Origin: Nocardiopsis chromatogenes YIM 90109
Lineage (GTDB): Bacteria; Actinomycetota; Actinomycetes; Streptosporangiales; Streptosporangiaceae
Direction: 5' to 3'
Assembly: GCF_000341185.1 (NCBI RefSeq)
Contig: NZ_ANBH01000271.1
Location: 1-32,087 of the forward strand
DNA: 32,087 nucleotides
The translations under genes and the position numbers were made by a program. This document shows positions 869 to 25,252 of this stretch, in pieces; the stretch's first letter is position 1, and each line of letters begins with the position of its first letter. The notes beneath the pieces are model-generated. The model did no database searches, was not told the origin of the DNA, and was given only the letters and a program-made list of their open reading frames with translations.

Positions 869-2239
869 TCAGCCCAGCCGGGAGTCGGTGCCGCGCGGGC
901 CGATCGGCGCCTCGTCGCCGTCGACGCCCGGTGCCCAGTCGAAGACCACGGAGTCCTCCTCGGTGCCGATGTAGACCTCGGCCCCGGCGGTGGCGCCCGC
1001 CTTGGCGAGGGCCTCCTCGATGCCGAGCCGGTCGAGGCGCTCGCCGAGGTAGCCGACGGCCTCCTCGTTGGAGAAGTCGGTCTGGCGGACCCACCGCTCG
1101 GGCTTGGTGCCGCGCACCCGGAAGGTGTTCTCGCCCAGGGCCACGACCTCGAACGAGGAGTCTTTGAGCTCGCGGGGGCGCAGGACCACCCGGGTGGGCT
1201 CGGGCTCGGGCCGGTCGGCGCGGGCGCGGGCGACCTCCTCGCCCATGGCGAAGGCCAGCTCGCGCAGGCCCTCGCGGCTGGCGGCGGAGACCTCCAGCAC
1301 CCTCAGGCCGCGCTCCTCCAGCATGGGGCGCACGATCTCGGCGAGGTCGCGGGCATCCGGCACGTCGATCTTGTTCAGGACGACCAGCCGGGGCCGGTCG
1401 GACAGGTCGACCTCCATCAGCTCGCCGTAGGCGGCCAGCTCGTCCTCCAGGGCGTCGAGGTCGGCGGCCGGGTCGCGGTCGGGGTCGTAGGTGGCGGTCA
1501 TGCAGTCCAGGACGTGCACGAGGGTGGAGCACCGCTCGATGTGCCGCAGGAAGTTCATGCCCAGGCCGCGCCCCTGGCTGGCCCCGGGGATGAGGCCGGG
1601 CACGTCGGCCACGACATACTGCACCTCGCCCGAGTCGACGACGCCGAGGTTGGGGATCAGCGTGGTGAACGGGTAGTCGGCGATCTTGGGCTTGGCCGCC
1701 GAAAGGGCCGCGATGAGGGAGGACTTGCCCGCGCTGGGGAAGCCGACCAGGCCGACGTCGGCGATGGTCTTGATCTCCAGGCGCACGTCGACGGCGAGGC
1801 CCTCCTCGCCCTTGAGGGCGAAGCCGGGGGCCTTGCGCTTGGGCGAGGCCAGCGCGGCGTTGCCGAGGCCGCCCGCGCCGCCGTCGGCCAGGACCAGGCG
1901 GGTCCCGGCGCCGACGAGGTCGGCGATGACCTCGCCGTCCGCCCCTGTGACGACGGTGCCGTCCGGAACGGGGAGCACGAGGTCGTCGCCGTTGGCGCCG
2001 TTGCGATTGCCGCCCTTGCCGGGTGTGCCGTTCCCCGCTCTGCGGTGGGGGCGGCGCTGGTATTCGAGGAGGGTGGCGATCTGCGGATCGACCTCCAGGA
2101 CGACGTCCCCGCCGCGCCCGCCGTTGCCGCCGTCGGGGCCGCCGAGGGGCTTGAACTTCTCCCGGTGGATGGAGGCACAGCCGTGCCCGCCGTCACCGGC
2201 CTTGACGTGCAAGGCGGCTTCGTCGACGAAATCGGGCAT
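869..2239 (-). CDS. obgE: Obg family GTPase
   Basis: Essential ribosome-associated GTPase involved in 50S assembly and stress responses. The 456-residue protein opens [20 protein letters not shown], the glycine-rich Obg fold. It then carries the G domain with GFPSAGKSS (P-loop), DVPGLI (G3) and NKID (G4), followed by an OCT-type C-terminal domain (about residues 340-430) typical of Gram-positive Obg. The ATG at 2239 was chosen because it begins the conserved Obg N-terminus. The open frame runs upstream to 2803, but that part translates CRISPR repeats and is not protein. It sits downstream of rpmA as in most actinobacteria, but 638 bp away instead of nearly adjacent, because a CRISPR array occupies the gap. 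Confidence 0.97.
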
Positions 2240-2354
2240 GTGCCTGGTACTCCCCATGTCGCGCCGGCGCGCACTCCGGCGCGCGGATTGAAGCTTCGTG
2301 GCCCCTCGACCCGCCCGTCCGATCCGGGCGAGGAGGAAAGATCCACCGCTCAAC

Positions 2355-2360
2355 ACTCTA
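2355..2360 (-). promoter_or_regulatory. Possible obgE -10 box (TAGAGT)
   Basis: On the minus strand TAGAGT fits the actinobacterial -10 pattern TANNNT and lies about 115 bp before the obgE ATG, between the CRISPR array and the gene. No clear -35 is visible. If real, it gives obgE a promoter of its own, independent of CRISPR transcription. Confidence 0.3.
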
Positions 2361-2460
2361 GACGGTCGGACCAAACGACGGCGAAGCCATTGGGGCAGGA
2401 GAGACCGATCACACCGTGGAGGAGGGGCGGGAGGACGGGCGGTGGCCGCTGGCCGGTCCT

Positions 2461-2733
2461 CCAGCGCTCCCCGCACGTGCGGGGAGCACGGGTTCCTCGA
2501 CGTGTTCGACACCGAGATCCGGGGTCCATCCCCGCGCGTGCGGGGAGCACCGAGTGGACGATCCCTGGCCCGACCTGAAGGCGGGTCCATCCCCGCGCGT
2601 GCGGGGAGCACTCCAAGCTCGGAAAGGCGCGAGTGCCGCGCGGAGGTCCATCCCCGCGCGTGCGGGGAGCACAAGTTGTACCCGATGTCCGACCAGCCGT
2701 TGCCGGGTCCATCCCCGCGCGTGCGGGGAGCAC
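2461..2733 (-). CRISPR. CRISPR array 1, type I-E-like, 5 repeats and 4 spacers
   Basis: Four near-identical repeats end at 2550, 2611, 2672 and 2733, exactly 61 bp apart, and a degenerate fifth ends at 2489. In crRNA orientation the repeat begins GTGCTCCCCGC and ends GCGGGGATGGACC, with a CCCCGC/GCGGGG hairpin. It is 28 bp, or 29 if the nearly constant final C is counted, giving 32-33 bp spacers; this is the geometry of type I-E. The degenerate repeat is at the left, marking the old end. The leader side is at the right, next to a motif shared with array 2, so the array is read leftwards, in the direction of rpmA and obgE. No cas gene is near. Confidence 0.97.
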
Positions 2734-2800
2734 TCTCGTTGACCTGGGGTGTTCCCCGGCCAAGGCGGCCTCTCATGCCACTTCGCACGTCCCCATCATC
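2734..2800 (-). promoter_or_regulatory. Leader side of CRISPR array 1
   Basis: Positions 2735-2749 read CCCCAGGTCAACGAG on the minus strand, identical to the 15 bases beside the first repeat of array 2, and are probably the Cas1-Cas2 anchoring part of a leader. Beyond it I see no similarity to the other leader, no AT-rich tract and no clear promoter, and the rpmA terminator follows about 60 bp away. The leader therefore looks shortened. Confidence 0.65.
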
Positions 2801-2806
2801 CACGAA

Positions 2807-2843
2807 AGGCGGGTCGGAAGGGTTCCCCCCTCCTGACCCGCCT
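2807..2843 (-). terminator. Hairpin terminator after rpmA
   Basis: A perfect 9-bp inverted repeat (AGGCGGGTC / GACCCGCCT) is followed on the minus strand by TTTCG. It lies 35 bp after the rpmA stop and before the CRISPR leader, so it should separate rplU-rpmA transcription from the array and obgE. Confidence 0.65.
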
Positions 2844-2877
2844 CTACGCGGATTGCCTCGTCTCGCGGCGCGCCTGA

Positions 2878-3138
2878 TTACTCGGCGCCGGCCGGGACGA
2901 TGCTGACGGCCTTGCGGCCGCGCCGGTTGCCGAACTCGACCTTGCCCTCGACCAGCGCGAACAGGGTGTCGTCGCCACCGCGGCCGACATTGTCGCCGGG
3001 GTGGAACTTCGTCCCACGCTGGCGGATCAGGATCTCGCCGGCCTTGACGGCCTGGCCGCCGAAGCGCTTGACACCGAGCCGCTTAGCGTTGGAGTCACGC
3101 CCGTTACGGCTGGACGATGCGCCCTTCTTGTGTGCCAT
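2878..3138 (-). CDS. rpmA: 50S ribosomal protein L27
   Basis: L27 is a 50S subunit protein whose N-terminus reaches the peptidyl-transferase centre. The 86-residue sequence [16 protein letters not shown] through [23 protein letters not shown] is the standard bacterial form and length. It begins directly with AHKKGASS and lacks the cleavable N-terminal extension found in Firmicutes. It starts 14 bp after rplU and is co-transcribed with it. Downstream, a hairpin terminator and a CRISPR array separate it from obgE, which normally follows closely. Confidence 0.98.
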
Positions 3139-3152
3139 CGGGGAGCCCTCCT

Positions 3153-3461
3153 CTACTTGGCGATGCCGGTGACGCGGACCCGGGTGTACTTCTGGCGGTG
3201 ACCCAGGCGCTTCTTGTAACCGGTCTTGTTCTTGTATTTGATCATGTTGATCTTCGGGCCCTTGGTCTCGCCGAGGACCTCGGCGGTGACCTTGTAGGCG
3301 CTCAGCTCGCTGGAGTCGCTGACGACCTTGCCGTCGTCGACGATCAGCAGCGGCTCCCAGGACACCGTCGAACCGGTCTCCTCGGAGACCCTGTCGATGT
3401 TCAAGACGTCATCGACAGACACCTTCTCCTGTCGGCCGCCCGCTCGCACGATCGCGTACAC
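3153..3461 (-). CDS. rplU: 50S ribosomal protein L21
   Basis: L21 binds 23S rRNA in the large subunit. The 102-residue protein starts [20 protein letters not shown] and ends with the basic [22 protein letters not shown] tail typical of L21. The GTG at 3461 was chosen because it gives the family N-terminus and is preceded by GGAAGAGAG at good spacing; the longer open frame upstream encodes nothing recognisable. It is the first gene of rplU-rpmA, 247 bp after rne, with a terminator hairpin between. Its leader holds an isolated stem-loop resembling the CRISPR repeat (3485-3512). Confidence 0.98.
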
Positions 3462-3484
3462 CGGGGAACTCTCTTCCTGCTCGT

Positions 3485-24798: not shown

Positions 24799-25252
24799 CA
24801 AGGAGCCCCCGCGCGTGCGGGGAGCAGAGGTGCTCGGCGGCCTTGCCGGGCGGGCGGGGGTCCATCCCCGCGCGTGCGGGGAGCAGTCCAACACCGAGAA
24901 GGCCGGGCACGGCGAGACGGGTCCATCCCCGCGCGTGCGGGGAGCAGTGGCCGCGGGCCTCGGCGGGCATCAGGTGTTGGGGTCCATCCCCGCGCGTGCG
25001 GGGAGCAGCCGCCATGGAGGCTCCGGACCGTTCGGCGACCGGGTCCATCCCCGCGCGTGCGGGGAGCAGTCGTCGTAGGCGTCGCGGTACAAGGCATGGT
25101 CGGGTCCATCCCCGCGCGTGCGGGGAGCAGCCGCCCCGGGCCTGCTGCCGGTGAACTACCGGGGGTCCATCCCCGCGCGTGCGGGGAGCAGACCGACGAA
25201 CCCCGCGACCCGAAGGGCGCGGGGGGTCCATCCCCGCGCGTGCGGGGAGCAG
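24799..25252 (-). CRISPR. CRISPR array 2, type I-E-like, 8 repeats and 7 spacers
   Basis: Seven intact repeats end at 24886, 24947, 25008, 25069, 25130, 25191 and 25252, exactly 61 bp apart. A degenerate eighth ends at 24827, with a 31-bp spacer after it. In crRNA orientation the repeat opens CTGCTCCCCGC; array 1 opens GTGCTCCCCGC, and otherwise the 28 bases are identical. The leader lies at the right and the array is read leftwards, away from its plus-strand neighbours. Degeneration at the left confirms the old end. No cas gene lies within the window. Confidence 0.97.

Follow-up and report, generated by a model that had tools for sequence, protein, structure and literature searches.

The question raised by this locus is whether a CRISPR array lying between two housekeeping genes, rpmA and obgE, takes part in the expression of the essential GTPase gene next to it or is only tolerated there. 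The preliminary description had allowed for both: a link between obgE and immune transcription, or insertion of the array into a gap that tolerates it, which left obgE to its own promoter. In the analysis of the window, i.e. the whole stretch of 32,087 nucleotides of Nocardiopsis chromatogenes YIM 90109 DNA, the array was best explained as a type I-E satellite array that is inherited vertically and tolerated in its gap, obgE being transcribed from its own promoter (probability approximately 0.83).

The neighbourhood includes mreB, mreC and genes for a penicillin-binding protein and RNase E/G, together with rplU, rpmA, obgE and the amino-acid kinase gene proB. The gene names given previously were right, as Pfam identified ribosomal protein L21 in rplU (3153–3464, minus strand), ribosomal protein L27 in rpmA (2878–3138, minus strand) and Obg in obgE (869–2239, minus strand; 456 aa), and the gene beyond obgE, in the proB position, encodes an amino-acid kinase. 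The start of obgE, an ATG at 2239, was set by homologues, which begin MPDFVDEA; a 644-aa open frame runs through the array into obgE, and the row in which the GC3 gene caller fused both was left out.

The gap between rpmA and obgE (2240–2877) has the 638 bp originally reported, and its minus strand contains five 28-nt type I-E repeats and four 33-nt spacers (2462–2733), the repeats following each other at steps of exactly 61 nt. Four of the repeat copies are identical and the fifth, on the obgE side, is degenerate; four perfect copies at a fixed spacing rule out chance. The crRNA-sense repeat, GTGCTCCCCGCACGCGCGGGGATGGACC, is a palindrome of the CCCCGC-N4-GCGGGG class, and repeats and spacers are of type I-E length (about 28–29 nt and 32–33 nt, respectively). 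In the order of the minus strand the array consists of repeat 1 (2706–2733), spacer 1 (2673–2705), repeat 2 (2645–2672), spacer 2 (2612–2644), repeat 3 (2584–2611), spacer 3 (2551–2583), repeat 4 (2523–2550), spacer 4 (2490–2522) and the degenerate terminal repeat (2462–2489), which has a near-perfect hairpin. The leader (2734–2785, minus strand, end approximate) abuts repeat 1 with its core CCCAGGTCAACGAGA on the rpmA side, and with the degenerate repeat at the opposite end the array is oriented like obgE, as had been proposed. Also the placement of leader and array between a terminator-like hairpin at the rpmA end (2807–2843, minus strand) and the obgE start codon agreed with the earlier reading. 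This hairpin is highly stable (z -7.6), has a weak T tail and is kept in the sister species.

The leader motif is real, since the same approximately 50 nt stand before other arrays in the genome. They are alignable between the arrays and end in CAGGTCANNNAG; farther from the first repeat than these 50 nt or so there is no homology. A carrier element shared by the flanks was rejected as an explanation, because the homology does not go beyond the leader, and on the downstream side of the arrays short pieces of repeat are all that match. Pattern searches of the genome (6.9 Mb, 415 contigs) found at least 16 I-E arrays, all short, provided with a leader and closely related in their repeats; dispersed arrays were recorded on contigs C58, C82, C105, C122, C157, C265, C266, C31, C76, C114 and C21 (loci L032–L043). 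The cas operon cognate to the rpmA–obgE array is the single complete I-E operon of the genome (cas3-cas8e-cas11e-cas7e-cas5e-cas6e-cas1e-cas2e), which has an array beside it and is situated on contig C58, unlinked to the array studied here. The leader of the rpmA–obgE array retains the junction core, is among the more divergent ones and has the highest GC content of the set (67%). Its -10-like region is poor, and with such a GC-rich leader the expression is perhaps weak.

The leader–repeat junction motif was present in 65 of the 121 sampled genomes of the family, several of them with about 13–20 copies; where a genome has one match only, with two mismatches, chance will account for some of these cases. 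A reversed control pattern was nearly silent in the same 121 genomes. Dispersed short arrays are thus common in the family. A second type I-E array with a leader of the same family and at least seven repeats is present in the window (24859–25252, minus strand). The orthologous site has two repeats in the sister species G001 and only degenerate ones in the sister species G002, which indicates that array size changes fast.

The junction was compared across relatives. Array length and spacers are variable in the sister species G001, G002 and G005, and the leader of each is orthologous to that of N. chromatogenes (G000): there are 10 repeats in G001, about 14 in G002, where the distal half has decayed, and at least one in G005, after which the contig ends. 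The break in G005 (end of L092, start of L093) is within the rpmA–obgE gap soon after this repeat, and the following sequence is not array-like; it may be an insertion that interrupted the array. The array is absent in the sister pair G003 and G004, which have a gap of 118 bp, and its repeat cluster was likewise absent from approximately 80 further actinobacterial rpmA–obgE junctions, most of them shorter than 200 bp. In the gap of one member of the family, G027 (L052), a single repeat-like palindrome, GCTCCCCGCGCGAGCGGGAGC, is located between rpmA and its terminator, and this could be either chance or a relic. The obgE tree places G000, G001, G002 and G005 together (support 0.998), separate from G003 and G004. 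A single gain of the array, in the ancestor of the four carriers, would be the simplest account of this distribution. No spacers common to G000, G001 and G002 were detected, the best alignments being at the level of shuffled sequences. Conservation among the carriers extends to the rpmA hairpin, the core of the leader and the block proximal to obgE, and as judged from these comparisons the spacers have turned over while the array site has stayed.

Searches of phage and plasmid records, and of viral contigs for exact spacer cores, provided no convincing source for the four spacers, and no exact viral match was found for any of them; spacers 2 and 3 had no target in the search and spacer 4 nothing convincing. 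Spacer 1, the leader-proximal and newest one, encodes an Amidase_2-type motif and matches the endolysin gene of Streptomyces phages, among them Amela, at 29 of 33 positions (E 0.04) with the flank CTC, the best match for any of the four. The same spacer is 2–4 mismatches away from an Amidase_2 gene on chromosomes of the genus, also on that of the genome itself, where the gene (L205; contig C223, 17527–17919) is a near self-target with four mismatches, all outside the presumed seed, and the flank GAC. A phage endolysin would be a plausible source of spacer 1. The first base is C in 58 of the 76 spacers of the genome, which would fit a 29th (last) repeat base derived from the PAM, and the phage match of another spacer of the genome is preceded by AA, giving AAC. 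Two arrays on contig C31 (L036) have a divergent leader and repeat and spacers mostly starting with G instead of C; they may have a different PAM preference. A link to obgE or to the window encoded in the spacers was rejected, as also here the best alignments were near the shuffled level.

The region directly 5' of obgE is occupied by a conserved block (CGGTGTGATCGGTCTC ... CGACCGTCTAGAGT; 2240–2417, minus strand, approximately 180 nt), which was found in array-bearing species only. It is 82–83% identical overall in the four carriers, and CGGTGTGATCGGTCTC, CGACCGTCTAGAGT and the box TAGAGT (2355–2360, minus strand), -10-like and part of the presumed promoter of obgE, are invariant in all four. 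The block had no match in G003 or G004 and only one in each carrier genome, and its origin as a copy of another locus was therefore rejected. The box is without a good -35, and a sigma-70 scan found nothing; literal TAGAGT was absent from the other actinobacterial junctions, where different -10-like boxes are possible. A structured RNA in the 5' region of obgE was rejected because Rfam gave no match, the fold z was -1.0 and covariation was almost absent. In 2200–3200 the scanner detected no terminator with a T tail, hence none between the array and obgE, so that the sequence as such would permit read-through. Independence of obgE is nevertheless favoured by the promoter-like block, which is conserved, by the variability of the array and by the relatives that lack it. 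Most likely obgE has its own promoter within 2240–2417, downstream of the array, and read-through from the array into obgE is unlikely. Of the two original readings, the tolerant gap with a separate obgE promoter is thus supported by the absence of the array in relatives, its variability in G001, G002 and G005 and the TAGAGT block kept in the four carriers, while no evidence was found for the link between obgE and immunity.

A relic kept by drift, which no longer adapts or makes crRNA, could explain the short, GC-rich leader with its weak -10-like region, as well as the distal decay of the equivalent array in G002 and its possible interruption in G005. However, the four identical repeats in G000, conservation of the leader core across four species and complete renewal of the spacers after the species separated point to adaptation having acted in the lineage since then, and also the cas operon is complete; a relic is improbable. 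That the array regulates obgE, with pre-crRNA reading through and a Cas6e cut at the terminal repeat fixing where the obgE mRNA begins or how much of it is present, is quite improbable. Such a role would agree with the co-orientation of the two, the 222 nt from the array end to the start codon with no T-tailed terminator between, the intact hairpin of the terminal repeat and the restriction of the TAGAGT block to array-carrying species. Yet an array with anything between 5 and about 14 repeats, total spacer turnover and, in G002, a distal half that has decayed is unlike a conserved regulatory part, a separate conserved promoter-like block stands directly 5' of obgE, close relatives and other actinobacteria have obgE without the array, and conserved RNA structure in the 5' region did not exceed chance.

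It is conceivable, but very improbable, that the array on its arrival cut obgE off from the upstream context it ancestrally had, with the gain of a new promoter block that is now conserved, and that pre-crRNA read-through and Cas6e cleavage tune the obgE mRNA; if this were true, the state of infection would touch an essential GTPase. Least credible is a de novo array produced by off-target integration by Cas1–Cas2 (neo-CRISPR). Integration outside arrays has been reported for overexpressed Cas1–Cas2 (Nivala et al. 2018, as cited in PMC11788318), and the unusual chromosomal place resembles the loci in that account. A locus formed de novo would carry local sequence as its leader, whereas here the leader is homologous to those of other arrays: it aligns with them, although more weakly than most, and the junction motif CAGGTCANNNAG is identical. 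This differs from the neo-CRISPR loci as far as they are described there, and makes descent from another array more likely.

According to the satellite reading, a leader-plus-repeat unit would have arrived in the rpmA–obgE gap in the common ancestor of the four sister species and been inherited vertically since then, with spacers gained and lost. Following established type I-E biology, the array would be transcribed, Cas6e would cleave the transcript at every repeat hairpin and the Cascade encoded on contig C58 would take up the crRNAs. We infer that obgE runs from its own promoter in the 2240–2417 block, insulated from the array, which would be a passenger beside an essential gene.

Multiple arrays and arrays distant from cas have been described before (PMC12814883, PMC4762764). 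The type I-E system of Streptomyces avermitilis (PMC4762764) has the same eight kinds of cas genes, a CCCCGCNNNNGCGGGG-type palindrome and a leader beside the first repeat, but its two arrays are beside the operon, whereas here many short arrays are scattered far from cas and one of them lies within a housekeeping cluster. Cas-distant arrays that share one Cas locus (PMC12814883) are similar in that there are several per locus and the distant ones are usually shorter; here also the repeats and leaders are related. Unlike in those systems, one genome contains at least 16 arrays with slightly different repeats, and a defined site is common to sister species. The rpmA–obgE array is thus genuine, yet as a satellite array it is ordinary and of a known kind; its site is unusual and is now phylogenetically placed.

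The array is likely to be a heritable satellite with no part in the regulation of obgE, and one gap of an essential gene cluster accommodates a CRISPR array that grows and shrinks. Genomes of the family have up to about 20 short I-E arrays with leaders scattered over them, and the family is therefore well suited to the questions of how leader–repeat units disperse and how one Cas1–Cas2 shares spacers among many arrays.
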